In this document: positions 5,421 through 35,666 of the stretch, piece after piece
Layout: each line of letters begins with the position of its first letter
How positions within the stretch are numbered: the first letter of the stretch is position 1
DNA from: an uncultured Luminiphilus sp.
Lineage (GTDB): Bacteria > Pseudomonadota > Gammaproteobacteria > Pseudomonadales > Halieaceae
DNA length: 46,358 nt
Assembly: GCA_938091995.1 (NCBI GenBank)
Contig: CALKNZ010000089.1
Location: forward strand, 1 to 46,358
Direction: 5' to 3'
Notes under the pieces: model-generated
Seen by the model: only the letters and a program-made list of their open reading frames with translations
Told to the model about the DNA's origin: nothing
Database searches by the model: none
Translations under genes and position numbers: made by a program

Positions 5421-5425
5421 AGTTA

Positions 5426-6124
5426 TTGAAAATGACAGCGCTTAATGGTCGTAGCCCTCAAGAAGTTATGCTCAATAGGTGGTGTGTTTTTGTCAGGCCT
5501 GATCAACGAAGGCCTGTTCAAGGTAGGGGTCGACCAGAGCATCGGCCACTTCCAGCGTTAGGGACGCTCGCAAGCATAGGGATACGTTCAAAGGCAGAAG
5601 TACCCTTAAAGGCAGCAGCATCCTCGAAGATAGAAGCGCTCTTTGACTATTGCTCTATCCAGTTTTTCGGCTGTGCGTTGGCGGCGCTGCTACTACTGTG
5701 GGCACAAGCTGGTGAGGCTCACCGTGAGCATGGTGTATGGACAGAGCTGATCTGGTCAGAGGACCGGTTTGAAATTACGCATCATATGCACCTGCAGGAT
5801 GCCCACTCAGTTTTAGCGGGGTTAGATGCCGACACAGGCCTCGATAGTCCCGAGGGCTTGGCGCGTCTGGCGCTGTACGTTGAGGATCGTTTTTCGCTGG
5901 TTTACGGTGGCGAAACTGTCCCGCTTGATTTGCTTGGGGCTGAGGCGGAGGGAGACTTTTTGTATGTATTTCAAGAGTGGCCGATTGCAGAGCCCATCGA
6001 GATGCCGCAAATTAAAAGCACCCTACTGGAAGACATACACCCCGACGCCAAGACTTGGGTTCGTATAGAAGCGCCGGGCCTAAACCGAGCCTGGGCAGTG
6101 GGTGACCCTGATTCGAGAAGGTAA
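5426..6124 (+). CDS. DUF6702-like secreted protein, start uncertain
   Basis: The frame opens 5 bp after the M1 peptidase stop (TTG 5426, ATG 5432). The C-terminal 140 residues begin AHREHGVWTELIWSEDRFEI and contain HHMHLQDAHSVL and a closing acidic beta-rich region. This matches the DUF6702 type, small secreted proteins found next to M1 peptidases; the function is unknown. A hydrophobic stretch (FFGCALAALLLLWAQAGEA, about residues 75-95) looks like the real signal peptide. The 70 residues before it are rich in Arg, Pro and Ala and look non-coding in style, yet I find no good in-frame start closer to the signal. Either the leader is translated, an unusual start codon is used, or a sequence error or frameshift lies in 5430-5640. 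Confidence 0.6.
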   Translation: MKMTALNGRSPQEVMLNRWCVFVRPDQRRPVQGRGRPEHRPLPALGTLASIGIRSKAEVPLKAAASSKIEALFDYCSIQFFGCALAALLLLWAQAGEAHREHGVWTELIWSEDRFEITHHMHLQDAHSVLAGLDADTGLDSPEGLARLALYVEDRFSLVYGGETVPLDLLGAEAEGDFLYVFQEWPIAEPIEMPQIKSTLLEDIHPDAKTWVRIEAPGLNRAWAVGDPDSRR

Positions 6125-6183
6125 GACTGATAGATCTGCTCAAAGTTGTGGCGGTTTACTTGGTTGCCGCTGTGAAGCCTTCA

Positions 6184-7395
6184 CTAAGTCACGGTGGCTC
6201 GTTGTGAAAACCGTTGCTCACGATATATGCCCGATTTTAATATATCGGCAAGAGTTGTGACGGCAATGTTGATGTCAGCACGCTGGTTATACAGCGGTGC
6301 GATGCCAAAGCGAATAATGTCAGGCTCGCGAAAGTCGACAATCACCCCGCGCTCAATTAACGCCTGACTAATCGGGAAACCGTGTTCGAGACGCAAACTG
6401 ACTTGCGAGCCCCGCCTTTGCGCTTCCCCCGGTGTTAAGCACTCAATGCCCGACGTCACCGGATTGTTGGCCAATTGGTCCATTAAGTATTGCGTTAGGG
6501 CCAGGCTCTGTTGGCGCAGCGTCTTTATAGTGACGGTCTCAAAGACCGATAAGGCAGCTTGAGCCGCCGCCATGGCAATGACACTTTGGGTCCCGGTTAG
6601 AAATCTGGTGATGCCTGGCGCGGGTCGGTAATTGGGTTCAAAGGCGAAGCGATCGGCATGCCCCATCCATCCAGGTAGGGGATTGGTCGCGCTTTGATGC
6701 CGCTTGGCAATGTACAGAAATCCCGGAGAGCCTGGGCCTGCGTTGAGAAATTTATAGGTGCAGCCCACGGCCATATCCACATGATGGCGATTTAATTCGG
6801 CTTCGATAACCCCTGCGCTGTGGGCGAGATCCCAAAGTACCAAAGCACCCTGAGCCTGAGCCCTAGCAGTAATCTCCGGCAAGTTCCGTAGCGTGCCAGT
6901 TCGAAAATTGACATGAGAAAGGGACAATACGGCGACATTGCTAAAGTCCAGCGTCTCTAGCGTATTTATCTCGACGGCCTCAACTTGGCAACGCTGTGGG
7001 CCCAATAGGTTTGCCAGTCCTCCAGCAATGTAATTGTCGGTGGGGAAGTGTCCCGCCTCGGTTATAATTCGGATACGTGGCGCATTAAGTTCTAGGGCCG
7101 CGGCCAGACCTTTAAAAAGATTGATCGAAAGATTATCGCAACATAAAACTTCCCCGGGGCCAGCACCAATCAGTTGGGCGATACGATCGCCTACGGTACT
7201 GGGCAGGTTAATCCAGTCGTGCTTGTTCCAACCCGCTATTAGGTCTTCACCCCATTGGCGGCTAACGACGGTGTCAAGGTGACGTCTGACGGTATCGTGG
7301 AGGGCGCCTAGGGAATTACCGTCGAGATAAACACGCTGTGCAGATAAATGAAATCCAGCACGAATCGTCGCCAATGCCTCGTCGGTATTAGTCAT
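6184..7395 (-). CDS. kynU: Kynureninase
   Basis: A 403-residue PLP enzyme of fold type I that cleaves kynurenine to anthranilate and alanine in tryptophan breakdown. Seen: RVYLDGNSLG (21-30), FPTDNY (117-122), WDLAHSAG (188-195) containing the PLP-pyridine aspartate, and GCTYKFLNAGPGSPGFLYI with the Schiff-base lysine at K215. These are the hallmark kynureninase segments, and the length matches the family (about 400-420). The start ATG overlaps the stop of the upstream HGGxW hydrolase gene by 8 bp, so the two are translationally coupled. That pairing supports a kynurenine-pathway assignment for both. No tryptophan 2,3-dioxygenase gene lies in the window. Confidence 0.92.
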   Translation of the reverse strand: MTNTDEALATIRAGFHLSAQRVYLDGNSLGALHDTVRRHLDTVVSRQWGEDLIAGWNKHDWINLPSTVGDRIAQLIGAGPGEVLCCDNLSINLFKGLAAALELNAPRIRIITEAGHFPTDNYIAGGLANLLGPQRCQVEAVEINTLETLDFSNVAVLSLSHVNFRTGTLRNLPEITARAQAQGALVLWDLAHSAGVIEAELNRHHVDMAVGCTYKFLNAGPGSPGFLYIAKRHQSATNPLPGWMGHADRFAFEPNYRPAPGITRFLTGTQSVIAMAAAQAALSVFETVTIKTLRQQSLALTQYLMDQLANNPVTSGIECLTPGEAQRRGSQVSLRLEHGFPISQALIERGVIVDFREPDIIRFGIAPLYNQRADINIAVTTLADILKSGIYREQRFSQRATVT

Positions 7396-10939: not shown

Positions 10940-11746
10940 ATGACCACCGTTAGCGATAGTTCCTTACTGATCAACGAGCAGGGTGCGCAAATGACCCTAA
11001 CCCTGAACCGCCCCGAAGTGGGCAATGCCTTCAGTGGGGCTATGGTCGACGCCCTCTACCAAACCTTCAGCGATCTGGCGACACGGGATGACATACGTGT
11101 CGTCGTGTTGGAAGGTGCGGGCAAGCACTTCTGTTCGGGTCTTGATCTAGTGGATGGTGGCTGGGGTTTTAATGAGCGTTCGGTGGGCATGCTGCTGGGT
11201 GTGCAACGACGCATTGGGCGTCTGTATTTGGCCATGCGGCGTTGTCCACAGGCAATAATAGCCACCGTGCAGGGCGCTGCCTATGGCGGTGGCCTGAGTC
11301 TCGCCGCAGCCGCCGACCTGCGAGTTGCTGACAGCACTGCAAAATTCTGTGCCGCTTATATTCGTATTGGTCTCACCGGCGCCGATATGGCCAGCAGCTA
11401 CCTCCTGCCGCGCCTGGTCGGTGGCTCTTTTGCGGCTGAAATGATGATGACCGGGCGTGCTTACGCTGCCGAAGCTATGGATAAACGCGGCTTTCTCTCC
11501 CACTTGACCGAGCCGGGGCAAAGGGAGGCATCGGTGTCAGCGCTGGTGAATGATTTATTGGCGACGGCCCCTCTGGGTCTTCGCCTGACCAAAGAGGCGG
11601 TGCACCTGGGTATTGATTCCCCCTCCATAGAAGCAACGATGGCTCTGGAGGATCGTCATCAGACCCTGTTGTCAATGACCGATGATGCGGCCGAAGCCAT
11701 GCATGCCTTTCAGGAGCGAAGGCCCCCAGATTACAAAGGTCGGTGA
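10940..11746 (+). CDS. Enoyl-CoA hydratase/isomerase family protein (crotonase)
   Basis: A 268-residue crotonase-fold protein acting on acyl-CoA thioesters. The CoA-binding and oxyanion-hole segments are visible as GAGKHFCSGLDL (about 55-66) and QGAAYGGGLSLAAAADLRVA (about 110-130). The second active-site segment reads RIGLTGADMASSYLLPRLVG, where hydratases usually have Glu in 'G..P..G....LPR'. Here the expected position is Gly/Ala/Asp, so the classical second glutamate may be absent and the reaction (hydration, isomerisation, decarboxylation or hydrolysis) is open. The start is backed by CCGGAG (10928-10933). It is 165 bp downstream of the sulfotransferase gene with its own leader, and convergent with meaB. 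Confidence 0.82.
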   Translation: MTTVSDSSLLINEQGAQMTLTLNRPEVGNAFSGAMVDALYQTFSDLATRDDIRVVVLEGAGKHFCSGLDLVDGGWGFNERSVGMLLGVQRRIGRLYLAMRRCPQAIIATVQGAAYGGGLSLAAAADLRVADSTAKFCAAYIRIGLTGADMASSYLLPRLVGGSFAAEMMMTGRAYAAEAMDKRGFLSHLTEPGQREASVSALVNDLLATAPLGLRLTKEAVHLGIDSPSIEATMALEDRHQTLLSMTDDAAEAMHAFQERRPPDYKGR

Positions 11747-11883: not shown

Positions 11884-12798
11884 TTAGTCGCGTTGTCGGT
11901 AAAACCGCTGCAAGAGCTCGGCCGCGTCTCCCAACTGTGCGTTTTCCGGGCTGCCAGCTGCAGGTGATGCCAGAAAAGCTTCAAAGTCTTGTATCAGCTG
12001 CGTTTTTGCAGCTTCTCGGGCCGCTTCAGAGCGACGCCTGCTGTGCGGGTTTTTGGCAGCATCCTGCATTAATTCGGCTAGCCCCTGCCACAGCTCCGGA
12101 ATGCCTTCGCCATCGGTGGCGATGGTGGTGAACACGCGTGGCGGCGTTGCGGCGGGTAAACACTGCAGCGATTGCTCAAGTAAAATTTTAGCGTTTTCAA
12201 GACCGGGTCGATCGGCTTTGTTTAAGACAAAGGCATCGCCCTGTTCCGTGAGGCCCGCTTTGTTCGCTTGGAAGCTGTCCCCCCAGCCGGGGTTGAGCAC
12301 CACCGCCACACGATCTGCTAGCGCCATGACGTCCAGCTCGACCTGCCCAATGCCCAAGGTCTCAATGATGACCAGTGGCCAACCCGCTGCATCCAGTACG
12401 TTGACCGAGGCTCGCGTTGCGGCGGCAATGCCTCCCTGCTGGCCCCGTGAGGCCATGGAGCGAAAGAATACTTTCTGTTCGAAGTGGCGGTAGTCCATGC
12501 GCACCCGATCGCCCAACAGTGCGCCGCCGGTTACTGAAGAACTGGGGTCAACCGCTAACACCGCAACAGCGCCATAATGGTCTAGAGCATGGGGAAGCAG
12601 GGCGCTGATTAGTGACGATTTACCAGCGCCGGGCGGCCCGGTGATCCCCAATACGTGTGCGGACGCGGGCTGCTGAAGTGCCGTCTGCTCAATCGTCAGT
12701 GCCTCGGGTCCTCCTGACTCGATGGCTGAAATTGATTTAGCGAGCGCCCTACGTACGGTAAAGTCGTCTGGTGAAGAAGCGCTTGTGCCGTCGCTCAT
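11884..12798 (-). CDS. meaB: MeaB/ArgK-type GTPase, B12 mutase chaperone
   Basis: A 304-residue G3E-family GTPase. Walker A GPPGAGKSS at 54-62; VLAVDPSSSVTGGALLGDRVRM is the family-specific switch segment; ETLGIGQVELDV replaces the Walker B region; NKAD (in FVLNKADRPG) gives guanine specificity. MeaB proteins protect and reload adenosylcobalamin in acyl-CoA mutases, gating cofactor transfer with GTP hydrolysis. The ATG overlaps the stop of the B12-subunit gene in an ATGA arrangement, placing it third in the operon mutase - B12 subunit - meaB. This close coupling is the best evidence that the divergent mutase is a working B12 enzyme. The canonical MeaB switch reads ET-V-G-x-x-Q; here it is ET-L-G-I-G-Q. 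Confidence 0.93.
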   Translation of the reverse strand: MSDGTSASSPDDFTVRRALAKSISAIESGGPEALTIEQTALQQPASAHVLGITGPPGAGKSSLISALLPHALDHYGAVAVLAVDPSSSVTGGALLGDRVRMDYRHFEQKVFFRSMASRGQQGGIAAATRASVNVLDAAGWPLVIIETLGIGQVELDVMALADRVAVVLNPGWGDSFQANKAGLTEQGDAFVLNKADRPGLENAKILLEQSLQCLPAATPPRVFTTIATDGEGIPELWQGLAELMQDAAKNPHSRRRSEAAREAAKTQLIQDFEAFLASPAAGSPENAQLGDAAELLQRFYRQRD

Positions 12799-13181
12799 TG
12801 TGCTGCGCTGAGCCCCGTCAGCCGATTGGCTGAATCGACAATATCGGTCAGCATGGATCCGGGAGGAAATACTTCCAGCCCCTTCGCTTGGAGTTGCTTG
12901 CAGGCGTGGGGTGGAATAGTCCCACCGGCAAAGATCGGCATGTCTGGCGCGGCGGATTGCACCGCGTCAACCGCCCTCAATGCCACGTCGATGTGACCAC
13001 CAACGTTAAGACCCACCAAATCAACATCCTCGTCAATAGCGGCCGCCACAATTTCAGCGGTGGTTGCCATGCCAATCATAATCACTTCAAACCCGGCATC
13101 GCGCAGGGCTCGAGCTACAATAGTAGGGCCCCGCCAGTGGCCATCCAGACCAGTTTTGGCCATAAGGATACGTTTTGGCAT
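12795..13181 (-). CDS. B12-binding small subunit of acyl-CoA mutase
   Basis: With the start at ATG 13181 the protein has 128 residues. The upstream AAAGGGGGTGA ribosome site is strong, and the longer frame from 13250 would overlap the mutase gene. It is a stand-alone cobalamin-binding domain: MPKRILMAKTGLDGHWRG holds the DxHxxG motif whose His replaces dimethylbenzimidazole below cobalt. VGLNVGGH stands where S-x-L is normal, and IFAGGTIPP is the GG motif. Separate B12 subunits are known for isobutyryl-CoA mutase (IcmB), 2-hydroxyisobutyryl-CoA mutase (HcmB) and some archaeal methylmalonyl-CoA mutases. It lies 16 bp after the large-subunit stop and overlaps meaB by 4 bp. Confidence 0.92.
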   Translation of the reverse strand: MPKRILMAKTGLDGHWRGPTIVARALRDAGFEVIMIGMATTAEIVAAAIDEDVDLVGLNVGGHIDVALRAVDAVQSAAPDMPIFAGGTIPPHACKQLQAKGLEVFPPGSMLTDIVDSANRLTGLSAAQ

Positions 13182-13197
13182 CAGGTAATCACCCCCT

Positions 13198-14829
13198 TTA
13201 ACATTGAATTGGCGTGCGCCAGTCACCGAAAACTTCTCGATACACGTCACCCACCTCGCCCAGAGTTGCCTCGGCTTCGAGACAATCCATCATGATCGGC
13301 ATAATGTTGTCGCTGCTGCGGCAAACACGCTCTAAATCTTTGAGCGCATTCTTTGCCCCTTTTTCATGTCGGGTCCGTTTAACTTCTTTGAGACGCTCCA
13401 GCGCCACATCAAAAGCATCATCGGTGCCGATAAATCCATCTATTTCAAAGGGGCTGCTATCGTCATGAGCCATAGTGACACCGACAATATTGGCCTCGCC
13501 ACTTTCGGTCTGCATGAATTCTTTGTGCTGATTTTCTTCCGCTTTTGCGTGCAGCCAACCCGAATCAAGGCAGGCCAGATAGCCTCCTCGGGTTTGTATT
13601 TCTTCAAAAAAGGCCCAGGATTTTTCAACGAGTTGCGCGGTTAAAGTTTCGACATAGTAAGATCCGCCGAGGGGGTCGGTGACGTCTGTGAGTCCGGTTT
13701 CCTCCATGAGAATTTGTTGAATTCGGACCGACATTTGATGAGCGTGTTCAGAGGGGATGGACAGGGCTTCATCGTAGCCCGACACGCCCAATGACTGCAC
13801 GCCACCCAAAACCGCACTCACCGCCATGAGTGCGCCGCGCACCAGATTATTCATGGGTTGCTGGTAAGCCATTTTTGATCCTGCGGTTACGCAGTGGATT
13901 CGCAGATTCGCGACCCGTTCATCTTTAATGTTGTAACGCTGCTTCAGCAGATCCGACCACATGAGTCGGGCGGCTCGCATCTTGCAGGCTTCCTCAAAAA
14001 TCTTGATGGAGGCCCTGAAGCTTACTCCCCCACATCCCCTAGCTGCGACTTCAAGGGGAATACGACCCCGCAACTGAATCTCGTCGAGGTACTCCACGGC
14101 ATTGGCAAACAAGCTCCCGAGCTCTTGATCTGGAGTGAGACCGGTATCGGCACCGTTGTAACCGGCGATTGACACAGGGACCCAGCGCGGAAGATGTTCA
14201 GTACAAAATTCGATGATATCGCCGTTGAATCGAAGGCCTGCATCGGTGGGAATTTGCTGTTTAGTCACGCAGCCCAGATAGGTGAGGTTAAAATCACTCT
14301 GCCCTGTGCCGGCAAGCTTACTGAGATCGTAGCCTCGCTTTTTGGCGACCGCCCAGTAAGCGGCCAAAGCAAATGGGGCGTGTTGCACCACCGCTCCCCC
14401 GGCATGGCCGAAACTGGTGTCCATGGGGAGCCCGTCGAGACAGATAGCGGTGTCCCGCACGCTTTGCATTACGGCTCCAGTCAGGCCCACATCTTCCCTA
14501 CGGGCCAGCACTTCAGGGTGGTCAACGTTATAGCAGTGGTCTGCCGTATTGCGGTCATGCTCCATGATGAACCCTGTCTCGCCATTTTTGAGCAGGAACT
14601 TAATGCGCTCGTTCTCATCCTCGGGCTTGCCAAAGCCACTCAGTTGAAAGATTCGCCAAGGCTTGGAACGGTAGCCTGAAGGGTGAAAGCCCCGATGGTA
14701 TGGCGCCTCTCCCGGAGCGATGTTCGTGCGCTGGGCATGCGAACTGGGGATATCTTCTGCCGTGTAATAGGTCTTAAGCGGAATATCTGAGCAAGCCTGC
14801 ACCGTGTCCTGCGGGTCTTTTGGGCGCAT
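13198..14829 (-). CDS. Acyl-CoA mutase large subunit, non-canonical active site
   Basis: A 543-residue catalytic (TIM-barrel) subunit of the methylmalonyl-CoA mutase family without its own B12 domain. Family landmarks: YHRGFHPSGYRSKPWRI (44-60), KLAGTGQSDF (171-180), LPRWVPVSIAGYN (213-225), KMRAARLMW, VTAGSKMAYQQPMNNLVRGA and TDPLGGSYYVETLT. Aligned by eye to Propionibacterium MCM, Tyr89 ('RQYAGF') corresponds to Leu63 ('FQLSGF'). Arg207, which binds the substrate carboxylate, falls at about Cys187. His244 ('SGYH') is Asn225 ('AGYN'). Known relatives with altered sites are isobutyryl-CoA mutase (Phe, Gln) and 2-hydroxyisobutyryl-CoA mutase (Ile, Gln). A methylmalonyl-CoA substrate is therefore unlikely; a neutral or branched acyl-CoA is inferred. 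It is first in the mutase - B12 subunit - meaB operon. Confidence 0.9.
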   Translation of the reverse strand: MRPKDPQDTVQACSDIPLKTYYTAEDIPSSHAQRTNIAPGEAPYHRGFHPSGYRSKPWRIFQLSGFGKPEDENERIKFLLKNGETGFIMEHDRNTADHCYNVDHPEVLARREDVGLTGAVMQSVRDTAICLDGLPMDTSFGHAGGAVVQHAPFALAAYWAVAKKRGYDLSKLAGTGQSDFNLTYLGCVTKQQIPTDAGLRFNGDIIEFCTEHLPRWVPVSIAGYNGADTGLTPDQELGSLFANAVEYLDEIQLRGRIPLEVAARGCGGVSFRASIKIFEEACKMRAARLMWSDLLKQRYNIKDERVANLRIHCVTAGSKMAYQQPMNNLVRGALMAVSAVLGGVQSLGVSGYDEALSIPSEHAHQMSVRIQQILMEETGLTDVTDPLGGSYYVETLTAQLVEKSWAFFEEIQTRGGYLACLDSGWLHAKAEENQHKEFMQTESGEANIVGVTMAHDDSSPFEIDGFIGTDDAFDVALERLKEVKRTRHEKGAKNALKDLERVCRSSDNIMPIMMDCLEAEATLGEVGDVYREVFGDWRTPIQC

Positions 14830-14944: not shown

Positions 14945-16123
14945 GTGTTTGGATACGATGCGTCGACGTTGGGTTTAACGGCTACTGAACGGGTGCACAT
15001 GGGTCGCCGTGTCGCTGAGGCGCTTGGCGAAGAGGCCGAGCTGTTAAACGCCCAACGGATCTTTCTTTTAGTCAGCACCACGTTGCGTAACAGCACCGAC
15101 GAAATTGCCCAAATTGAGTCTGTTTTGGGGGCGCGTTTGGCACATACCTATGATGGTATTGCTGCCCATGCGCCGCGAACCGATGTTCTTAAAGCCATGG
15201 CTGCTGCCCGATCTGTACAGGCAGACCTCATTATCACGGTTGGCGGTGGGTCTGTGACTGACGCGGGTAAAGTGATCGCCCTAGGCTTGAAGCACAACAT
15301 GCTCAAACACGAAGACTTTGAAGGTTTTTACGTTTATGTAGATGACAATGGCGATACGGTGGCGCCGGTCTTTGACGGACCTGATGTTCGTGTCATCTGC
15401 TGCCCTACCACATTGTCCGGCGGTGAATTCAACACCATGGGTGGTGTGACTGACGACCATGAAAACAAAAAGCAGGGCTATACCCACCGGATGATGGCCC
15501 CCGTTGCTATCGTTCTAGACCCTGCACTGACCCTGCATACGCCAGAGTGGCTCTGGCATTCGACTGGTGTACGAGCCGTTGATCACGCTCTGGAATCCCT
15601 GAGTTCTAATCACTCCAGTTATTTTTGTGACGGCGTAGCTGAGAGTGCCCTTCGCCTACTCAGCCAGGCCATGCCTGCGGTGAAAGCAGACCCTACCGAT
15701 CTCGACGCGCGCCTGCGCTGCCAGATAGGGGCCTGGCAGTCGATGATTCCCATTATTGGCGGTGTACCCATGGGAGCCAGTCACGCAATTGGTCACGTGC
15801 TAGGCGGTACCGCCGACGTTCCCCATGGTTATTGTTCCTGTGTTATGGCACCCGCGGTGTTAGCTTTCAACAAGCCTGTTACGGGTGCTAAGCAAGAGAA
15901 AATCAGCGATAGCTTTGGGCGGCCCGGAGAGGATGCCAGTGTTGTGCTCGATGACTTTATTCGCGGTTTGGATATGCCCCGCTCACTCGGCGAAGTAGGG
16001 GTCACTGATGATCAGCTCGATCTTATTGCCGAGTACACCATGCTGGACTTTTGGTCTCGGACAAATCCAAGGGAGATAACAGGTCCTGCCGATGTTCGTG
16101 GAATTTTAGAGCTGGTGCGCTAA
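14945..16123 (+). CDS. Iron-containing alcohol dehydrogenase / maleylacetate reductase-like
   Basis: A 392-residue group III (Fe-type) NAD(P)-dependent dehydrogenase. The dinucleotide motif GGGSVTDAGKVIALG (about 100-114) is the family's GGGS-x-x-D-x-x-K. Metal ligands fit AVDHALESLSSNHSS and the pair in GASHAIGHVLGGTADVPHGYCS. The GTADVPHG segment and the moderate length resemble maleylacetate reductase more than butanol dehydrogenases, but no catechol-cleavage genes are near. It probably oxidises or reduces an alcohol/ketone intermediate of the neighbouring pathway. The start is GTG 14945 behind GATGAGG. It is first in a plus-strand run, with a TetR gene starting 2 bp after its stop. Confidence 0.83.
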   Translation: MFGYDASTLGLTATERVHMGRRVAEALGEEAELLNAQRIFLLVSTTLRNSTDEIAQIESVLGARLAHTYDGIAAHAPRTDVLKAMAAARSVQADLIITVGGGSVTDAGKVIALGLKHNMLKHEDFEGFYVYVDDNGDTVAPVFDGPDVRVICCPTTLSGGEFNTMGGVTDDHENKKQGYTHRMMAPVAIVLDPALTLHTPEWLWHSTGVRAVDHALESLSSNHSSYFCDGVAESALRLLSQAMPAVKADPTDLDARLRCQIGAWQSMIPIIGGVPMGASHAIGHVLGGTADVPHGYCSCVMAPAVLAFNKPVTGAKQEKISDSFGRPGEDASVVLDDFIRGLDMPRSLGEVGVTDDQLDLIAEYTMLDFWSRTNPREITGPADVRGILELVR

Positions 16124-16125
16124 GG

Positions 16126-16785
16126 ATGACGGCAGCTGCCAACCTTGCGCAAGCAAACCTCAAGCACGAAGTGGCTGACTTCAAACGTCGGCGCATAAGA
16201 GAGGAGGCGAGCCATCTTTTTTTCGAGCAAGGCTATGAGAGCACCACACTCGATGCCATTGCGCAGCGACTCGATGTCACCAAGCCATTTCTTTACACGC
16301 ATTACGCGAATAAAACCGAATTGTTATATGACATTTGTCGAACTGGAATTTTGCAATCCTTAGCGGCGATTGAGCCGATCCTAATGGATAGGACTGACAG
16401 TGCCGTAGGGCGCTTGGGTCGTCTGGTAGAGGCTGTTTTAACAATCATTTTCGATTTTCAAGAATTCATTGTGGTTTACGAGCGGGAGGAAAAAAATCTC
16501 GACGAGGTGCAGGCTCGCGAGATACGAGAGCACCGAAGCCTGTTTGACCACAAACTGGCGACGTTATTGGAGCAGGGACAGCTGGCCAAAGAATTTGAAA
16601 TTGTAGACGCGGTGCTTACTGCCAATACCATTGGTGGAATGATGACCTGGGTAGCACTGTGGTATCGCTCAGGAGGGAAGCGCACTCGTTACCAGATCGT
16701 CAGTCACACCATGGCGATGGTATTTTCAGTCGTGGGCGCAAACCGTCAGGATCAAAGCGCACTTGTTGCTGCGGCCCGGCGATAG
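16126..16785 (+). CDS. TetR/AcrR family transcriptional regulator
   Basis: With the ATG at 16126 (two bases after the dehydrogenase TAA) the protein has 219 residues. The N-terminal TetR helix-turn-helix is plain: RRRIREEASHLFFEQGYESTTLDAIAQRLDVTKPFLYTHYANKTELLY spans about residues 23-70, of which TTLDAIAQRLDVTKPFLYTHY is the DNA-reading part. The rest is a helical ligand-binding and dimerisation domain typical of acyl-CoA- or substrate-sensing repressors. The frame extends upstream to 16051 inside the dehydrogenase gene, but no ribosome site supports it. Placed inside the catabolic operon, it most likely controls the divergent promoter at 14830-14944 and possibly itself. Confidence 0.9.
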   Translation: MTAAANLAQANLKHEVADFKRRRIREEASHLFFEQGYESTTLDAIAQRLDVTKPFLYTHYANKTELLYDICRTGILQSLAAIEPILMDRTDSAVGRLGRLVEAVLTIIFDFQEFIVVYEREEKNLDEVQAREIREHRSLFDHKLATLLEQGQLAKEFEIVDAVLTANTIGGMMTWVALWYRSGGKRTRYQIVSHTMAMVFSVVGANRQDQSALVAAARR

Positions 16786-16809: not shown

Positions 16810-18435
16810 ATGACATTACAGGCTTCAACTGCAGATCCACGTATCCCCAATCGGGACCTTTGTGTCACTCGCTATTTACTCGAGCGCTGGGCTCAAGAGA
16901 AACCCCAGCAGGTGTTCGCGCTGTTTCAAGACGGTGACGAGTGGACTTATGTCCAGTTGCTTGCCCGGGTAAAAAAACTGGCCGGTGGCCTTGCAAGTAC
17001 TGGAGTTGGACGTGGCGATCATGTTGCTGTCTGGATGTTCGATGGTAAGGAAGCCATTCTCACTTTTTTTGCGCTCAACTATTTGGGTGCGGTTTTTGTG
17101 CCCCTGAATACGGCGTTTAGGGGTAAGGTTCTCGAGCACACGCTGAACTTATCGGACGCTGAAATTCTGATTGCTCACGGGCAGCTGCTGGATCGTTTAG
17201 GCGAGGTAGAGTGCCCACAAATTAATCAGCTGATCTGCGTTGGCGACGGGGTTGTACCCGCCGAACATCAGCATACGCCTTGGTCTGTGTTATCTGAGGC
17301 CGAACAGGTACCCCCTGAGCTTGATCGGCCGATAGAACCTTGGGATACCCAGTCCATTATTTTTACTTCTGGTACCACCGGCCCGTCAAAAGGTGTGCTG
17401 TCATCGTACCTACATATTTTCACGAACGCGGGCCCCGAAAGTTGGCCTTTTGTGACGGGCGAAGACCGCTTTCTTATCAATATGCCTATCTTTCATATTG
17501 GCGGTATGGGTGTCATTTTTGTCATGTTGGCACGAGGGGGCTCGATCGCTGTTTCTGACGGATTTTCTACAGATACGTTCTGGCCGTTTGTACGTTCTTC
17601 GAGAACCACAGTGGTGTTTTTGCTGGGTGTTATGAGTACTTTTTTGTTGAAGCAGCCACCGGCAGATACCGACCAAGACCATGACCTGCGGTTGGTGTTT
17701 ATGGTTCCTTTGACTGAAACCTGTGCAGACTTTAAGACCCGCTTTGGGCCAGACGTTTACACCATTTTCAACATGACTGAAGTTAGCTCGCCCATTGTGT
17801 CAGAGGCAAATCCAACGAAACGGGGAACCTGTGGCCGTAAGCGTGATGGTGTCGATGTTCGTTTGGTTGACGACCATGACTGTGAAGTGCCCCTGGGTGA
17901 AGTGGGCGAAATGATTGTTCGGACCGACCGACCATGGGGTATGAATTCGGGTTACTACAAACAGCCCGATGCCACCGCAGAGGCGTGGCGCAATGGCTGG
18001 TTTCATACGGGAGACTGCTTTCGGGTTGACGACGACGGCTACTATTATTTTGTAGATCGGATGAAAGACGCAATTCGCAGGCGAGGAGAAAATATTTCGT
18101 CTTTTGAGGTTGAAGCAGAGGTCGTGGCCTATGACGCTGTCCGGGAAGCTGCTGCTTTCGCTGTGCCCAGTGACGTGGGCGAGGACGAAGTGATGGTGGC
18201 GGTTGCACCTGTGGAAGGCCAGTCCCTTGACCCTGAGGCTCTGGTGCGCTTCCTCGGTGAGCGAATGGCGCATTTCATGGTGCCACGATATGTCCGCATT
18301 CTTGAAGAACTACCCAAAACACCGTCATCAAAAGTGATGAAACATGTATTAAGAAACGAGGGTATTACTAGCGATACCTGGGACAGAGCAGCCATTGGCT
18401 TGCATTTTAAACGCGAAACACTATCGGCCCAATAA
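16810..18435 (+). CDS. AMP-forming acyl-CoA synthetase (CaiC/FadD-like)
   Basis: A 541-residue ANL-superfamily ligase that activates a carboxylic acid to its acyl-CoA via acyl-AMP. The P-loop is TSGTTGPSKG (186-195). Further motifs are FNMTEVSSP (A5-type), GWFHTGD (A7), DRMKDAIRRRGENISSFEVE (A8) and the catalytic lysine region PKTPSSKVMK (A10) near the C-terminus. The RRRGENIS form of A8 is typical of crotonobetaine/carnitine-CoA ligase and related bile-acid or short-chain ligases. It lies 24 bp after the TetR gene, in the same run as the TonB receptor and P450. It probably prepares the substrate or a ring-opened product as CoA thioester for the mutase. Confidence 0.9.
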   Translation: MTLQASTADPRIPNRDLCVTRYLLERWAQEKPQQVFALFQDGDEWTYVQLLARVKKLAGGLASTGVGRGDHVAVWMFDGKEAILTFFALNYLGAVFVPLNTAFRGKVLEHTLNLSDAEILIAHGQLLDRLGEVECPQINQLICVGDGVVPAEHQHTPWSVLSEAEQVPPELDRPIEPWDTQSIIFTSGTTGPSKGVLSSYLHIFTNAGPESWPFVTGEDRFLINMPIFHIGGMGVIFVMLARGGSIAVSDGFSTDTFWPFVRSSRTTVVFLLGVMSTFLLKQPPADTDQDHDLRLVFMVPLTETCADFKTRFGPDVYTIFNMTEVSSPIVSEANPTKRGTCGRKRDGVDVRLVDDHDCEVPLGEVGEMIVRTDRPWGMNSGYYKQPDATAEAWRNGWFHTGDCFRVDDDGYYYFVDRMKDAIRRRGENISSFEVEAEVVAYDAVREAAAFAVPSDVGEDEVMVAVAPVEGQSLDPEALVRFLGERMAHFMVPRYVRILEELPKTPSSKVMKHVLRNEGITSDTWDRAAIGLHFKRETLSAQ

Positions 18436-18461
18436 GGGTTATAAATCTAAAGTTGTGAAGC

Positions 18462-18467
18462 GAGGAG
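18462..18467 (+). promoter_or_regulatory. Ribosome binding site deciding the TonB receptor start
   Basis: GAGGAG lies 8 bases before the ATG at 18476 but only 2 bases before the in-frame ATG at 18470. The frame is open as far back as 18395, inside the ligase gene. The spacing selects 18476, which also gives a normal signal peptide. Confidence 0.65.
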
Positions 18468-18475
18468 TAATGCTC

Positions 18476-20671
18476 ATGAAAATAACAGGACATTTCCCAA
18501 AGTTTTTGGCACTCAGCAGTGCGGCTGTAATGACTGCTCAAGCGTTAGCCCAACCTACCCTTGAAGAAGTGGTGGTGACGGCCTCTAAAAAAGATGTCTC
18601 GGTCACTGATCTTGCGGCCGCTGCAAATGTGATTGGCGCTGAGGATATCGTTCCCGGAGGGGTGCAATCTGTCCGCGACATGATCGTTGACGTTCCCAAT
18701 CTCTCCATCGGCGATCAATTTGGCTTTGCCCGCGTGTTCATGCGCGGCATAGGAATGACCAGTATCGATATTGGGGGTGAGGGTGCAGTCGCGTTCTTGC
18801 AAGATGGCGCTATTATTCCCCGCCCTGCAGCGCAGTTGATGGGCATGTTTGATTTAGCCCAACTTGAAGTACTCCGTGGGCCCCAGGGGACACTCTATGG
18901 GCGTGGTGCTACCGCCGGCGTTATCAACATGGTGACGGCGAAGCCCGGCAATGAACTTGGCGGGTATATTCGAGCGACGGCGGGTAATTATGGCCTGCTT
19001 GATATTGAAGGCGCGGTAGATTTGCCTCTGAGTGACGCGCTGTCGGTTCGACTGGCAGGCAAGTTTGAAAATCGTGACGGTTATGGCACCAACTTGTTCT
19101 CTGGGGAGGAAGTTGACGATCGTGATGCCCAAGCTTACCGCGTAACTTTCGCTTACGACGATGGCGGCTCCTTTCGGGCAACAGCGGCCTACCAACATTA
19201 TGAAGAAGATGATCAGAACTTCGCCTTTCACTACTTTGGCCCTTCAGAGGGTAATCCCCTAGGCCCACTGGCCGTGCCTATTTTTGGTGGTCAAACTGTT
19301 TTTCAAGCCGGGGGCAGTATTTACGATATCAACTCGGATCAAGAGGCGATTAATACTCGAGATGGAGAGAGCGGAATTATCACCTTGGAATTTGATGTCG
19401 CGGACAACCAAACTCTGAAATCCATCACCTCCTTTCAGGAAATGGATCGCTTTTTAAGAGACGATCTTGATTCCACTGACGCTAATCTTTTTGGTCAGAA
19501 TAACTACACAGAACAAAGTGAATCCTGGAGTCAGGAGGTGACCTATAACTTCTCTGGCGACCGCCTCGATGTTTTAGCAGGCGCTATGTACTTTGAAGAA
19601 GAACTTTACGGCCAGGTTTTGGTGCCGCTCACCAATATCTGTGCGCTATTGGCCCCTGACCTATGCGGCACGCCAGTGGGTGATTTCCTTGGCTCCGGTC
19701 GCTATGAGCAAAATGGTGACGTCGATATCGAAGCCTATGGTATTTATGCCGAGGCGAGCTATCAGCTTACCGAAGCTTTTAAGATTATTGCGGGCGTGCG
19801 TTATAACTACGAAGAGCGCAGTGGCACGGGTGCCTTTGTTTTTGATGCAGCGGGTCTCGATGTTCCTACAAACCAAAGTGAGGACTGGAGCGATGTCACG
19901 CCACGGTTAACCGTAGAGTTTGAGCCCAACGACAACATGTTGCTTTACGCCACCTACAATCAGGCATTTAAGTCCGGGGTAATCAATACCGGTAGTACCA
20001 GTCCGGCACTTGAACCCGAAACAGTCGATGCTTTTGAATTGGGAATAAAGGGTTCGACAGCCGACGGGGGCATGCGCTACGCCATTTCTGGCTTCTACTA
20101 CGATTACGCTGATCTACAGATCTCTTTTGTCGACGAAAGCAGTACGGTTAGCACTATCAATGCCGCAGAGGCGGAAAATTACGGTGTCGAGGTGGAGATT
20201 GATGCGGCGCTGTCTGATTCGTTCACCATGGATTTCTACGCAACCTACCTAAGTGCAGAGTATAAGGAGTTCTTTAATGGTGATTACTCCGATGGCTTTG
20301 CGGTTAAGGATCTCAGTGGTAACACGCTACCTAATGCACCTGAATACACCTTTAAGTTGGGCCTAAACTATCGAGCAGAAATGATGGGTGGGGACGTGAT
20401 GTTGCGCGGCGAGTACTACTATCAAGATGATGTGTATTTCACTGAATGGAACCGTGCCGATGCTTACCAAGAAGGATACGGACTACTGAATGCCCGGGCT
20501 GTCTACACCTTGCCTGGAGATCGCTGGAGCTTCGCGGTATGGGGCCGCAATTTGGCCGATGAAGAAGTGATCTCTAACAACATTATTACAGCACCGCTGT
20601 ACAACTCGTTGCGGGTGGGTTCCATGTTGCCCCCTCGTACCTATGGTGCAACGGTTAGTTTCGATTTCTAA
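18476..20671 (+). CDS. TonB-dependent outer-membrane receptor
   Basis: A 731-residue receptor from ATG 18476. The signal peptide (about residues 1-26) ends at AQALAQ and is followed at once by a TonB box, LEEVVVTA. The plug domain carries VPNLSIGDQFGFARVFMRGIG and LEVLRGPQGTLYGRGATAGVINMVT. The beta-barrel follows and ends in TVSFDF with the terminal Phe typical of outer-membrane proteins. The short TonB-box-to-plug layout is that of the many marine and sphingomonad receptors associated with small organic substrates rather than siderophores. It sits between an acyl-CoA ligase and a cytochrome P450, 40 bp after the ligase stop, so I infer it imports the pathway substrate. No iron-uptake genes are nearby. 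Confidence 0.92.
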   Translation: MKITGHFPKFLALSSAAVMTAQALAQPTLEEVVVTASKKDVSVTDLAAAANVIGAEDIVPGGVQSVRDMIVDVPNLSIGDQFGFARVFMRGIGMTSIDIGGEGAVAFLQDGAIIPRPAAQLMGMFDLAQLEVLRGPQGTLYGRGATAGVINMVTAKPGNELGGYIRATAGNYGLLDIEGAVDLPLSDALSVRLAGKFENRDGYGTNLFSGEEVDDRDAQAYRVTFAYDDGGSFRATAAYQHYEEDDQNFAFHYFGPSEGNPLGPLAVPIFGGQTVFQAGGSIYDINSDQEAINTRDGESGIITLEFDVADNQTLKSITSFQEMDRFLRDDLDSTDANLFGQNNYTEQSESWSQEVTYNFSGDRLDVLAGAMYFEEELYGQVLVPLTNICALLAPDLCGTPVGDFLGSGRYEQNGDVDIEAYGIYAEASYQLTEAFKIIAGVRYNYEERSGTGAFVFDAAGLDVPTNQSEDWSDVTPRLTVEFEPNDNMLLYATYNQAFKSGVINTGSTSPALEPETVDAFELGIKGSTADGGMRYAISGFYYDYADLQISFVDESSTVSTINAAEAENYGVEVEIDAALSDSFTMDFYATYLSAEYKEFFNGDYSDGFAVKDLSGNTLPNAPEYTFKLGLNYRAEMMGGDVMLRGEYYYQDDVYFTEWNRADAYQEGYGLLNARAVYTLPGDRWSFAVWGRNLADEEVISNNIITAPLYNSLRVGSMLPPRTYGATVSFDF

Positions 20672-20692: not shown

Positions 20693-21919
20693 GTGAATAG
20701 TGCGTTCTCGTTCAACCCTATGGATCCGCAGCTGCTTGCGGATCCATACCCTATTTTTCGCCAGATGCGTGAGCATGACCCGGTCCATCGGTCAGATCTT
20801 GGGTTTTTGGTGATGACCCGTTACGACGATTGTCGCCATGTGCTTATAGACAAAACCTTTGGCCAAGGTGACTTTGTTCGTAATATTCAGCTGTTCTATG
20901 ACGCCGATTTTGACGTGTTATCTCACCCGGCCTATGCCTGGTTGTCACGGGTGTTCGTTATGCAGGACCCGCCGCAGCACACCCGGTTACGCGGCCTCAT
21001 TGCAGGGGCACTGTCACTCAAGCGTATTCGATCTATGGAGCCGAGAGTACGAGAACTCGCTCGCAGGTTATTGTCCGATATAGCAGGTCAGCCCGGTGTT
21101 AATTTTATAGAGACCTTTGCTTATCGATTTCCCACATTAGTCATGTGCGACATGTTGGGGCTTGAGGAGAGCGAGTTTTCGGATGAACTCCTTTTGCAAT
21201 TGAATCAGGCCATTGCCGATACGTTCCCGGTTTTTGAAACACGAGCCCTTAACGATGACGAGTTGGCCTTGGCCAATCGACAGATGGAGTTTTTGACGAC
21301 TTTTTTTGACGACTTGTTTGCTCGGCGTCGCCTCAATCCTAAGGATGATCTGAGTACCGCATTGGCCATGGCCAACGAGGGTGGCAACTCGTTGTCGCCC
21401 GAGGAACTCAGTACCTCGGTAATTGGGCTTTTTGGAGCAGGCTTTGAGACAACGGCTCACATGATTGGTAATGGGTTGTATTTGCTAGGGGCTCACCCTG
21501 AGGAGCGCGCCAAGTTGAAGGCTGATCTGAGTTTGGCGAGCGCTGCAACCGAAGAGATTACGCGGTTCGAGTCGTCATTGCAGGCAACCTACCGCACAGC
21601 GTTGTCCGATACGGTGGTCGCGGACCAGCCTATTCAGGCGGGTGAGCGTATCTTAACGATTGTTGCGGCTGCCAACCGTGATGCTGCTGTCTTTCGCCAG
21701 CCCGAGTCCTTTGTTATTGATGCTCGTGAGGAAAAGCCCCTCACTTTTGGCGGTGGTATTCATTATTGTGTGGGCGCTGAATTGGCCCGACTAGAGGGCC
21801 GAGTTTTTCTGGAGGAGCTGTTTTCGGCCTACCCAAACTTTGACGTTGACACCGAATCGGCTCGCCTTCGACAGGCTTTTCTGTTCCGGGGATTTGAGCA
21901 CCTAGGAGTGACGCTTTAG
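20693..21919 (+). CDS. Cytochrome P450 monooxygenase
   Basis: A 408-residue soluble bacterial P450. I-helix oxygen-binding motif AGFETT (249-254), ExxR as E288-I-T-R291, and heme loop FGGGIHYCVG (352-361) with the cysteine ligand C359. All key residues are intact, and the length is that of typical class I P450s. The start is GTG 20693 behind CGGAG. No ferredoxin or ferredoxin reductase gene is adjacent, so electrons must come from elsewhere in the genome. It follows the TonB receptor by 21 bp and its stop TAG shares a base with the GTG of the flavin monooxygenase gene (TAGTG). The likely role is hydroxylation of an alicyclic or branched hydrocarbon skeleton, the specific substrate being unknown. 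Confidence 0.94.
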   Translation: MNSAFSFNPMDPQLLADPYPIFRQMREHDPVHRSDLGFLVMTRYDDCRHVLIDKTFGQGDFVRNIQLFYDADFDVLSHPAYAWLSRVFVMQDPPQHTRLRGLIAGALSLKRIRSMEPRVRELARRLLSDIAGQPGVNFIETFAYRFPTLVMCDMLGLEESEFSDELLLQLNQAIADTFPVFETRALNDDELALANRQMEFLTTFFDDLFARRRLNPKDDLSTALAMANEGGNSLSPEELSTSVIGLFGAGFETTAHMIGNGLYLLGAHPEERAKLKADLSLASAATEEITRFESSLQATYRTALSDTVVADQPIQAGERILTIVAAANRDAAVFRQPESFVIDAREEKPLTFGGGIHYCVGAELARLEGRVFLEELFSAYPNFDVDTESARLRQAFLFRGFEHLGVTL

Positions 21920-23004
21920 TGGTCGAAGCACACCCAGCAGTAGATCGGTTGCTGTCACTAGGCCTGTTTATGCCCAACTGCTCGAACATGCCTTCGATAT
22001 CGACTCACGAGGTCGTTGCACAACAGTGGACCTATGCCGAAAATGAGTTGTTGGCCCAGCGCGCTGAAGCCCTAGGTTTTGACTATCTGTTTCCAGTCTC
22101 ACGATGGCGTGGATTTGGTGGCGAGACGAACTTTTTGGGAACGTCACTTGAAACTACTACCTGGGCCGCCGCACTGTTACGGGCCACCGAACGCATCAAC
22201 ATTTTTTCCACAGTACATATACCGTTATTTCACCCCTTCGTGGTTGCCAAAATGGGTGCCACATTAGCCCACATGAGTGGCGATCGCTGGGGTCTCAATG
22301 TGGTGAGTGGTTGGAGTGCTCGTGAGTTTGGCATGATGGGTGTGGAACTGGCTGAACACGGTCGACGCTACGAGCGCACCGCTGCTTTTATCGAAATTCT
22401 CAGGGGACTTTGGGATTCGTCCCAGCAGCCGCTTAATCACAAGAGTGACTGGTATTCTGTGGTTGATGGGGAGGCGTCACCTATTCCGCAGCGACAGCCA
22501 CAAATTGCCAATGCTGGTACTTCAGCCGATGCGCAAAGTATGACGGCTCGCTTGTGTGACTGGGCCTTTATTTCAACCCCGTCTATTGATGCTCTAGGGA
22601 CTTTAATTAAAGGCATTGCCTCTCAGGCTGCGGCACACCATCGTCTTGTTCGGACTGCGATTTTTCCGTTCTTGCTGTGGGCAGATAGTAGAAGCGAGGC
22701 GGAGGATAAATTAGCCGCCATCATTGCGGCCAAAGATTCTGAGGCCGCAGATAACTGGCTTCATGATTTAACCGCCGGTAGCGGTTCTTTTGATGATTTC
22801 ACCAAAGATATGCTTGCCGCTTCTGGCGGAGGGGTACATTTGGTTGGCACCGCTGCGGATATCACTGAGCAACTCATAGAAGCTCATCGATTGGGGGTTG
22901 ATGCAGTCATGCTGACATTTCCCCGATACCGTGAGGACCTCGAGCGCTTTGCCCGAGATATACAACCGACGCTGGTACGAGCGGGTATTGTCGCACCCTC
23001 ATGA
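21919..23004 (+). CDS. LLM-class flavin-dependent monooxygenase (RutA/SsuD-like)
   Basis: A 361-residue luciferase-like TIM-barrel flavoprotein, translationally coupled to the P450 by a one-base stop/start overlap. RGFGGETNFLGTSLETTTWAAALLRATERINI and GDRWGLNVVSGWSAREFGMMG are the segments conserved in the SsuD, SfnG and RutA branch, which uses FMNH2 delivered by a separate reductase. RutA opens uracil, SsuD cleaves C-S bonds, and other LLM enzymes are type II Baeyer-Villiger monooxygenases. The RGFGG motif is closest to RutA in my memory, but the neighbours are not pyrimidine genes. Its role is inferred as oxygen insertion or ring opening after P450 action. No flavin reductase lies in the window. 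Confidence 0.85.
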   Translation: MVEAHPAVDRLLSLGLFMPNCSNMPSISTHEVVAQQWTYAENELLAQRAEALGFDYLFPVSRWRGFGGETNFLGTSLETTTWAAALLRATERINIFSTVHIPLFHPFVVAKMGATLAHMSGDRWGLNVVSGWSAREFGMMGVELAEHGRRYERTAAFIEILRGLWDSSQQPLNHKSDWYSVVDGEASPIPQRQPQIANAGTSADAQSMTARLCDWAFISTPSIDALGTLIKGIASQAAAHHRLVRTAIFPFLLWADSRSEAEDKLAAIIAAKDSEAADNWLHDLTAGSGSFDDFTKDMLAASGGGVHLVGTAADITEQLIEAHRLGVDAVMLTFPRYREDLERFARDIQPTLVRAGIVAPS

Positions 23005-23090: not shown

Positions 23091-23936
23091 TTGATACGCA
23101 ATAGCACCCTAATTTGTGATGGCTTTGCTTTCATTGAAGGGCCGCGGTGGCAGCGCGATGCCTTGTGGTTTTCTGATATGCACGACGAAGCTGTATTTCG
23201 AGTAGTGCCGGGCGCTACCCCAGAGCGTGTTGTGCCAGTTCCCCAGCGGCCATCGGGTCTGGGCTGGTTACCCAACGGTGATCTTCTAATCGCGTCTATG
23301 TTGGATCAAAAAATTTTGAGATATACCGGCTCAGGTGAGTTGACCCTGCATGCCGACGTTTCAGCGGTGGCTGAGCGTCGTATCAATGACATGCTTGTCG
23401 ACGATGCGGGTAGGGCTTGGGTCGGTAATTTTGGTTTTGATCTGCCTGATGGTGAACCTGTGACTCCGGGTACGTTGGCTCGGGTAGACCCCGATGGCTC
23501 GGTACACCCAGCGGCTTCAGATCTTTTGTTTGCCAATGGTATGGCGTTATTGAACGGGAGTGAGACTCTGGTCGTTGCTGAAACCTTTCGCGGCTGCCTG
23601 ACGGCATTCGATATTGCATCAAATGCTGAACTGATTAATCGAAGAATCTGGGCTCAACTACCTGAAGGTGCGGTTCCCGACGGTATTTGTGTCGATGCCG
23701 AGGGTGCTATTTGGGTAGCGTCACCCACTACGGGTTCGGTTCTCAGGCTGGGTGAAGGAGGCTTAGTTTTGGACAGCATAGAGACGGGGCGCCAAGCTAT
23801 TGCTTGTGCCCTCGGAGGGCCGCAGGGGGATACCCTTTTTATCAGTTCAGCAGTGGCCACTGAGCGCCAGGCCTGTCGTGAGGCTAGAACGGCCCGTATT
23901 GATGCCTATCGGGTGAGCGTTCCTGCGCCCCAATGA
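23091..23936 (+). CDS. SMP-30/gluconolactonase-type lactonase
   Basis: A 281-residue six-bladed beta-propeller hydrolase of the SMP-30/Gnl/LRE family. Metal ligands fit the Glu in FIEGPRW (about residue 15), the Asn in FANGMALL (about 148) and the Asp in VPDGICVD (about 198). INDMLVDDAGRAWVGNFGF carries the usual central N-D-x-x-V-D element. These enzymes open lactones using one divalent cation. After a P450 and a flavin monooxygenase, a lactonase fits ring opening of a lactone made by Baeyer-Villiger-type oxidation. That is inference from order. The start is a TTG at 23091 behind GGGGTAG. The stop lies only 3 bp from the stop of the convergent ligase gene. Confidence 0.86.
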   Translation: MIRNSTLICDGFAFIEGPRWQRDALWFSDMHDEAVFRVVPGATPERVVPVPQRPSGLGWLPNGDLLIASMLDQKILRYTGSGELTLHADVSAVAERRINDMLVDDAGRAWVGNFGFDLPDGEPVTPGTLARVDPDGSVHPAASDLLFANGMALLNGSETLVVAETFRGCLTAFDIASNAELINRRIWAQLPEGAVPDGICVDAEGAIWVASPTTGSVLRLGEGGLVLDSIETGRQAIACALGGPQGDTLFISSAVATERQACREARTARIDAYRVSVPAPQ

Positions 23937-27996: not shown

Positions 27997-28090
27997 TTTG
28001 GCCATCTTATAAAACTTCATGTCCACGGCTTTATTTTCTTGAGTTCGGTGTGTAGTGTGCTACTGGGGGAATATAAAAAGAAGATGTGCA

Positions 28091-31743: not shown

Positions 31744-32789
31744 CATTTGTAAAACCCGCCTTTAGACATCCCGATGCGCCGCTTAATGAGTTGGGTCGCT
31801 CTAGACAAGATTATGAGGGCGGTTTATCCACCCTTTGCGCAGGATGTGGTCACGATTCGGTAAGTGCTGCAATCATTGACGCGTGTTTTGAGCTCAACAT
31901 AGAGCCCCATAAGGTGGCTAAGTTATCGGGCATTGGTTGCTCATCGAAGACCCCTGCTTACTTTTTGTCGGGCTCGCATAGCTTTAACAGTGTCCATGGG
32001 CGTATGCCATCCGTGGCGACCGGGGCCAACCTTGCTAATCGCGACCTCATCTATATTGGTATATCGGGAGACGGGGATACCGCTTCAATTGGTCTGGGAC
32101 AGTTTGCGCATGTCGTGCGGCGAAATCTTAATATGACCTATATCGTGGAAAATAATGGTTGCTACGGTCTGACAAAAGGCCAGGATTCAGCGACCATGGA
32201 TACGGGATCACCCAACAAGAAAGGCGATATCAACATGTATTCGCCTATTGACCTGGCCCGCCTTGCTATAGAGATCGGTGCGACTTTCGTCGGTCGTAGT
32301 TTTTCCGGAGATAAACAGCAGCTCATCCCATTGATTAAGGCAGCTATTAGTCACCGCGGCTTCGCACTACTTGATGTCGTTTCGCCCTGTGTCACCTTTA
32401 ATAATCATAGTGAGTCGACCAAAAGCTATGAGTATATGCGCGGTGCCAATACCGATATGCCGGTCGATTTTGTGCCTATGCGGCAGGAAATTACCGCAAC
32501 CTATGACTCTGGCGCGACCTGCGAGGTGTGTATGCATGACGGATCGGTAGTGCGCCTGTATAAGCAGGACAATGACTACGATATTGAAGACCGACAGTCG
32601 GCTTTAGAGGCCACTAACCACTATGCCAAAGAGGGTAAAATTCTTACGGGATTACTGTATATCCAAAGGGATAGTGAGGAATTGCATGACGTTCTCGGCA
32701 CCGCTAGGCGCCCTCTTAACTCGATGACCGAGCAGCAGCTGTGCCCGGGCCCAAGGTTCTTGGACTCAATTAACGCGGGCTTACGCTGA
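31740..32789 (+). CDS. korB: 2-oxoacid:ferredoxin oxidoreductase beta subunit (TPP-binding)
   Basis: A 349-residue beta subunit overlapping the alpha-subunit stop by 4 bp. CAGCGH (C33, C36) and GIGCSSKTPAYF supply the first ligands of the [4Fe-4S] cluster. GDGDTASIGLGQFAHVVRRNLNMTYIVENNGCYGLTKGQ holds the thiamine-diphosphate motif GDG...NN, and SPCVTFN follows. These fit KorB/PorB-type enzymes. Together with the fused alpha-gamma subunit it should form the oxygen-tolerant or oxygen-sensitive CoA-dependent 2-oxoacid decarboxylating enzyme. The aerobic appearance of the organism points to an oxygen-tolerant type, by analogy with Mycobacterium KorAB. Confidence 0.9.
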   Translation: MTFVKPAFRHPDAPLNELGRSRQDYEGGLSTLCAGCGHDSVSAAIIDACFELNIEPHKVAKLSGIGCSSKTPAYFLSGSHSFNSVHGRMPSVATGANLANRDLIYIGISGDGDTASIGLGQFAHVVRRNLNMTYIVENNGCYGLTKGQDSATMDTGSPNKKGDINMYSPIDLARLAIEIGATFVGRSFSGDKQQLIPLIKAAISHRGFALLDVVSPCVTFNNHSESTKSYEYMRGANTDMPVDFVPMRQEITATYDSGATCEVCMHDGSVVRLYKQDNDYDIEDRQSALEATNHYAKEGKILTGLLYIQRDSEELHDVLGTARRPLNSMTEQQLCPGPRFLDSINAGLR

Positions 32790-35599: not shown

Positions 35600-35666
35600 A
35601 ATTACGTCGGTCACAAGGATCTTTGAGGGGGTGTAAGTTAGTGAACTGTTTGTGGTGGAGGGGTAT

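Follow-up and report, generated by a model that had tools for sequence, protein, structure and literature searches.

A deep, strictly conserved subfamily of predicted B12-dependent acyl-CoA mutases with a rewritten substrate pocket

An uncultured Luminiphilus of the family Halieaceae codes for the large subunit of a B12-dependent mutase that belongs, as far as alignments and trees allow us to judge, to a deep and strictly conserved subfamily with a rewritten substrate pocket and a changed B12 subunit. We think it on balance probable that this is an active, ligase-fed adenosylcobamide mutase of a distinct type, rearranging within a catabolic island an acyl-CoA that beta-oxidation cannot process, owing to a quaternary or hydroxylated alpha carbon. 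The initial annotation, a mutase with three replaced active-site residues, is confirmed, and the case proves stronger than first stated. To our knowledge, few substrates are known for the B12-dependent CoA mutases.

The mutase operon

The mutase gene occupies positions 13198..14829 (reverse strand) of the window, the whole stretch of 46,358 nucleotides analysed here, and codes for 543 amino acids and a stop. It is a divergent branch of the MM_CoA_mutase family, scoring 454 bits against PF01642 (curated cut-off 22.1) and 380.5 bits against TIGR00641 (cut-off 303.8), while staying below the cut-offs of the NCBIfam equivalog for methylmalonyl-CoA mutase (MCM; 341.7 of 876 bits) and of the IcmF profile (134.6 of 1500 bits). 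The AF2 model (pLDDT 84) has the mutase fold, matching both 4r3u and 1req_A. Downstream lies the B12-binding small subunit (12795..13181, reverse strand), with the motif GLDGHWRG; its frame opens at 13250, inside the mutase, and the likely start is the ATG at 13181, past the mutase stop. It overlaps by 4 bp a MeaB-type G-protein chaperone (11884..12798, reverse strand). All three genes run in the same direction, forming the single operon that had been proposed.

The source genome is a draft of 130 contigs with an estimated completeness of 80.75%. On a separate contig it holds a second PF01642 gene, a 729-aa frame that keeps the Tyr, Arg and His of MCM (row L001), which rules out that the window gene replaces MCM. 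A pseudogene is ruled out as well, by the single open frame and by purifying selection: in six comparisons pS reached 0.76-0.88, near saturation, against a pN of 0.045-0.156, so that the mutase is under strong purifying selection. Together with the intact partner and chaperone, this makes a live enzyme, predicted at the outset to be one of unknown specificity, the likeliest reading.

The clade and its B12 subunit

Relatives of the window mutase form a clade that spans down to about 50% identity and is found, by record title, in Halieaceae, other Gamma- and Alphaproteobacteria, Acidimicrobiia, other Actinomycetota and one Chloroflexota MAG. Four members come from cultured strains, again by record title (L054, which is Pseudohaliea rubra DSM 19751, L058, L059 and L095). 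Two MAG records with clade members are titled Klebsiella pneumoniae (L057) and Janthinobacterium lividum (L072); these names look unreliable, and the gene order of L057 is that of Halieaceae loci. Homologues at 73-98% identity occur in 27 of 196 related genomes, after which the next matches drop to 34%. The carriers are 13 of 56 congeners, 12 of 64 other members of the family and 2 of 76 of the order. The homologue of a genome from another family (G166) is 82% identical, above many Halieaceae, and this, added to the patchy spread, suggests transfer. No intermediate appeared in 299 genomes drawn from the phylum, where the best identity among the matches listed, own genome aside, was 36%. A further mutase match at E 1e-30 is present in 25 of the 28 carrier genomes (the source genome included), and in those the clade mutase is therefore no stand-in for MCM.

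The clade was expected to branch separately from known mutases, and it falls within neither MCM nor 2-hydroxyisobutyryl-CoA mutase (HCM) in either of two trees, whose references include one Phe/Gln row (L142) in both and no named ICM, ECM or RcmA. The first tree, a quick one of 55 rows with a long-branch warning, puts a Sphingobium mutase (L146) beside the clade (SH-aLRT 88). The second, of 50 rows (28 of the 81 clade rows and 22 other mutases), sets the clade apart from MCM, HCM and the pivalyl-CoA mutase (PCM) with support of 100/100; here the program warned about the long Xaut_5043 branch. It was built without L146, L147, L150, L122 and L141 and the clade rows L105 and L111, with L154 and L155 added.

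A homologue of the B12 small subunit adjoins the mutase, downstream, in 78 of 80 loci. In the two others the sequence ends 65 bases (L098) and 2 bases (L106) past the mutase match. Every one of the 78 has the cobalt-ligating DxHxxG motif, as fits base-off/His-on binding, and in every one it reads DGHWRG, against DGHDRG in HCM, PCM, Natrinema, Streptomyces canus and the three MCM domains compared. The SxL loop typical of the MCM and HCM small domains is absent: where HcmB has SLLSG, the clade consensus shows n-i and a two-residue deletion. Both changes taken together, we infer that the pocket of the lower ligand may differ. MeaB homologues are found in 47 of the 80 loci, each with its P-loop; in L054 the B12 subunit has no MeaB beside it.

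The substrate pocket

Residue counts below refer to 81 rows, the window and 80 loci retained out of 98 relatives; rows L002-L030, 29 clade members, were left out of them. MCM positions follow what we take to be the accepted numbering, counted by hand. Leu63 (codon 14641..14643, reverse strand as are those that follow) had been placed opposite Tyr89 of Propionibacterium MCM, Asn225 (14155..14157) opposite His244 and, roughly, Cys187 (14269..14271) opposite Arg207. The first two pairs are gapless in MAFFT and in phmmer against P. shermanii MCM and HCM, and the phmmer alignments with the human and M. tuberculosis enzymes agree. For the third, phmmer and MAFFT L-INS-i give Cys187, MAFFT --auto gives Val188 and none gives Arg; the shift of one column (gap placement ±1) arises because the clade has one extra residue there. 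The alignments are concordant apart from this gap, which disposes of a misaligned Leu, Cys and Asn, and no profile or sequence alignment restores a canonical Tyr, Arg or His.

Leu63, Cys187 and Asn225 are present in 81 of 81 rows, and so are Arg59, Gln177, Tyr224, His312, Gln345, Ser346 and Glu354, with Val217 in 80, Ser350 in 78 and Val314 in 77. The same alignment has 44 non-clade rows, in 42 of which His stands at 244 and in 42 Arg or Gln at 207; the exceptions at both positions are L146 and L147. The three replacements are thus real, but they are only part of the change, since other barrel positions differ too, as does the B12 subunit: Thr85 has become Arg59, Arg87 Phe61, Gln330 Val314, Asn236 Val217 and Asn366 Ser350. 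As a result the clade, at 27-29% identity between the window mutase and the human and P. shermanii MCMs, has none of Tyr89, Arg207, His244, Gln330, Asn236 and Asn366. It also has Leu and Cys in place of the Phe/Gln signature of isobutyryl-CoA mutase, and no IcmF-type fusion.

Two points weigh against an active mutase: the H244A mutation strongly slows known MCM, and in the excerpt of PMC11599936 the HCM scaffold lost its activity when first-shell residues were altered by rational design. The loss of three residues that contact the substrate in MCM might point to a dead or regulatory pseudo-mutase, comparable to the inactive small chain of heterodimeric MCM. We find this scarcely credible: the equivalents of five other active-site positions (MCM Gln197, Tyr243, His328, Gln361 and Glu370) are each kept in 81 of 81 rows, the B12 subunit retains its cobalt ligand, the chaperone accompanies more than half of the loci, and the replacement residues are themselves invariant.

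At position 90 (codon 14560..14562), which aligns with an Ala of MCM and with Asp117 of HCM, the clade has Glu in 71 rows and Lys in 10. Glu90 pairs with His142 in 71 of 71 rows and Lys90 with Lys142 in 9 of 10. Of the ten Lys90 rows, four are included in the second tree, where they group together (99/94), so that the switch between the two pairs may correspond to one or two events.

It had been argued that the loss of Arg207, which binds the carboxylate, excludes methylmalonyl-CoA. This substrate is indeed unlikely, but formal exclusion goes too far, because two arginines have become invariant in the clade: Arg59, and Arg272, at about the Gly289 position of MCM (by a gapless count from the conserved Lys283) and invariant in an alignment of 49 rows. 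Both are in barrel strands of the predicted structure. A carboxylate substrate, of the alkyl- or dialkyl-malonyl- or succinyl-CoA type, could be held by these arginines, or by Lys90/Lys142, which brings two positive charges together in its subgroup, in lieu of Arg207. We regard this as unlikely. Arg59 occupies the place of Thr85, two residues ahead of the lost Arg87, and may only replace a contact with CoA; in 71 of 81 rows the acidic Glu90 would work against a carboxylate; and no carboxylase is found among the annotated neighbours, a subset of all neighbours.

Several other unusual mutases were met. A plasmid of Sphingobium sp. TomTYG72 (AP027337.1; L146:1-11551) has at 4860-6581 a non-canonical mutase, 29% identical to that of the window, with Val at both 89 and 207, Glu at 117 and Gln at 244; it neighbours a B12 subunit (DTHTVG), MeaB, a P450, an epoxide hydrolase and a TonB receptor. 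On a plasmid of Paraburkholderia sp. PGU19 (L147:1629-8925), a mutase with Ile at 89, Asp at 244 and neither Arg nor Gln at 207 accompanies a small subunit with DVHTKG, two acyl-CoA dehydrogenases, an enoyl-CoA hydratase and MeaB. L031, L137 and L145 form a separate mutase branch that keeps Tyr, Arg and His but has Ala, Gly, Val and Cys at positions 243, 328, 330 and 366, respectively. Types L031 and L113 are annotated on plasmids as 'methylmalonyl-CoA mutase family protein' only. Finally, MT838864.1:3797-5284 (H137), deposited as 'Bacteriophage sp.', codes for a mutase that is 26% identical to the window mutase along 90% of its length; the record may be bacterial DNA filed under the wrong name.

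The catabolic island and the proposed reaction

The neighbours of the mutase were collected in 80 loci with a heuristic gene caller, clustered by BLAST and counted within 8 kb. By title, 57 loci are of Proteobacteria type (30 with full flanks) and 23 are others (14 with full flanks). In the window, divergently from the mutase, comes an iron-type alcohol dehydrogenase (Fe-ADH; 14945..16123, forward strand as are all that follow), present in 45 of the 57 Proteobacteria-type loci. It is followed by a TetR regulator (16051..16785; 38 of 57), whose true start is probably downstream of its first TTG, by an AMP-dependent acyl-CoA ligase (16810..18435; 47 of 57), the proposed maker of the mutase substrate, and by a TonB-dependent receptor (18395..20671; 37 of 57). 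Then come a cytochrome P450 (20693..21919; 19 of 57), a luciferase-like FMN monooxygenase similar to SfnG/RutA (21919..23004; 18 of 57) and an SMP-30/gluconolactonase-like protein, possibly a lactonase (23091..23936; same cluster in L034, L036 and L038). On the other side of the operon is a protein of the enoyl-CoA hydratase family (10940..11746; 29 of 57). The same 57 loci include 39 with MeaB, 15 with an SDR, 14 with an MBL-fold hydrolase, nine with an acyl-CoA dehydrogenase and eight with a thiolase. The MBL-fold protein examined resembles AHL lactonases, at a score below the cut-off. Some loci, L076 and L079 for example, have beta-oxidation sets with enoyl-CoA hydratase, SDR, thiolase, FadB-like protein and acyl-CoA dehydrogenase.

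The link with a ligase extends across the clade. A ligase of a different cluster is found in 18 of the 23 other loci, and, both clusters counted, an AMP ligase lies within 8 kb of the mutase in 66 of 80 loci, or, where both 8-kb flanks are complete, in 37 of 44; of the 14 loci without one, seven have full flanks. At three canonical MCM loci of the source genome and its relatives (G000, G049 and G108; 19.0, 9.3 and 19.0 kb), mutase, B12 subunit and MeaB homologues are present, whereas a search at E 1e-8 for counterparts of the ligase, Fe-ADH, TetR, TonB, P450, monooxygenase and enoyl-CoA hydratase gave none.

Further along the window, at 28055-32789, three adjacent ORFs form a set unexpected for an aerobic marine bacterium: by eye, one resembles a FAD/Fe-S protein of the glutamate-synthase-like kind and the other two the subunits of a 2-oxoacid:ferredoxin oxidoreductase. 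At 35652-38375, an FMO-like monooxygenase precedes an Abhydrolase_3 protein (Pfam), possibly another oxygenase-esterase pair.

Two known systems invite comparison. The accessible portion of PMC7176365 describes an operon, hcl-hcmAB-meaH, in which the ligase gene hcl stands with hcmAB and meaH. The combination of ligase and MeaB homologue in the clade (and likewise in L141) resembles such HCM operons, HCM is the closest PDB sequence match of the window mutase (phmmer, 1.4e-92), and 71 of 81 rows have an acid at the Asp117 position. A mutase acting on 2-hydroxyisobutyryl-CoA or on a larger 2-hydroxy-2-methylacyl-CoA, with Glu90 in the role of HCM Asp117, presumably the residue that binds the substrate hydroxyl, could be seen in these traits. 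We nevertheless hold it quite unlikely. Identity with HcmAB (PDB 4r3u; Methylibium/Aquincola) is 29-33%, depending on the method; Ile/Val90, Gln208 and His245 of HCM are Leu, Cys and Asn in the clade, and Asp117 is Lys in ten rows. The tree sets the two far apart, and while the HCM cluster has a GntR regulator, the clade has an island with TetR, TonB, Fe-ADH and P450.

Xaut_5043/5044, which we take to be PCM, resembles the window in other respects: Leu at 89, so that this residue, found where it had been reported, is not unique to the clade, and a cluster with a TetR regulator, a B12 subunit, a MeaB-type protein and ligases. A mutase of this type, acting on simple 2,2-dimethyl acids, is in our view very improbable for the clade. 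Xaut_5043 is 30% identical to the window mutase and stands apart in the tree, subject to the warning about its long branch; it has kept His244, has Asn at 207 and goes with DGHDRG, so that of the pocket residues only the Leu is shared. Moreover, the polar lining of Glu, His and Arg would ill suit a tert-butyl group alone.

Both clusters, hcl-hcmAB-meaH (as far as the excerpt of PMC7176365 and locus L141 describe it) and Xaut_5039-5045, follow the same logic as the clade island, and this yields our working model, the ligase-fed mutase favoured above. A dedicated CoA ligase would activate a carboxylic acid with a quaternary or hydroxyl-bearing alpha carbon. The mutase would remove a hydrogen by way of the 5'-deoxyadenosyl radical and shift CO-SCoA onto the adjacent carbon; the product, a beta-branched or 3-hydroxyacyl-CoA, would be consumed by the dehydrogenase, hydratase, SDR and thiolase of the island. 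The radical 1,2-shift, the CoA thioester as substrate and the direction are those that knowledge of the family leads us to expect. Opened by Leu63 and Cys187, the acyl pocket would probably be larger than that of MCM and of a different polarity. Leu at 89, as in Xaut_5043, and Cys in place of Arg or Gln suggest a bulky alpha carbon. In the main group, the acidic residue opposite Asp117 suggests a polar substituent; the ten Lys90 rows imply that a hydroxyl-binding acid would not be general. A polar group may be bound by Glu90/His142 (or Lys90/Lys142) and by Arg272, and contact with the thioester carbonyl would fall to a residue that is not the His244 equivalent.

Upstream of the ligase the picture becomes fainter. 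The P450, the FMN monooxygenase, the lactonase-like protein and the Fe-ADH might supply the acid, starting from a compound of cyclic or terpenoid-like type that the TonB receptor imports, a route that the gene content suggests weakly. The SMP-30/gluconolactonase-like gene of the window and three other loci makes a lactone step possible. As for the order, P450, Fe-ADH, FMN monooxygenase (as a Baeyer-Villiger-type step), lactonase and ligase would be a guess of low confidence. Fewer than half of the loci have the P450, and the same holds for the monooxygenase and for the lactonase-like gene; these genes may thus be part of an outer pathway that varies between loci, or of something unrelated.

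We found no description of this mutase branch in the open-licence literature, and an account may exist elsewhere. We give even chances to the broader proposal of a new acyl-CoA mutase class: it would rearrange the skeleton of a substrate type outside those of characterised mutases, polarise the thioester without His244, accommodate the cobamide tail in a modified pocket, comprise Glu/His and Lys/Lys substrate subclasses, and serve a catabolic route, as yet undescribed, that transfer has spread among aquatic Proteobacteria and Actinomycetota. Designed changes of the first shell failed in the cases reported in the excerpts of PMC11599936 and PMC2847961. Here a pocket rewritten in nature, cultured hosts and the link with a ligase open specificity and the function of His244 to direct testing. 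With a pocket unlike those of the characterised relatives compared, the mutase probably helps to degrade a branched compound, and the clade points to an unrecognised route of carbon degradation in aquatic bacteria.
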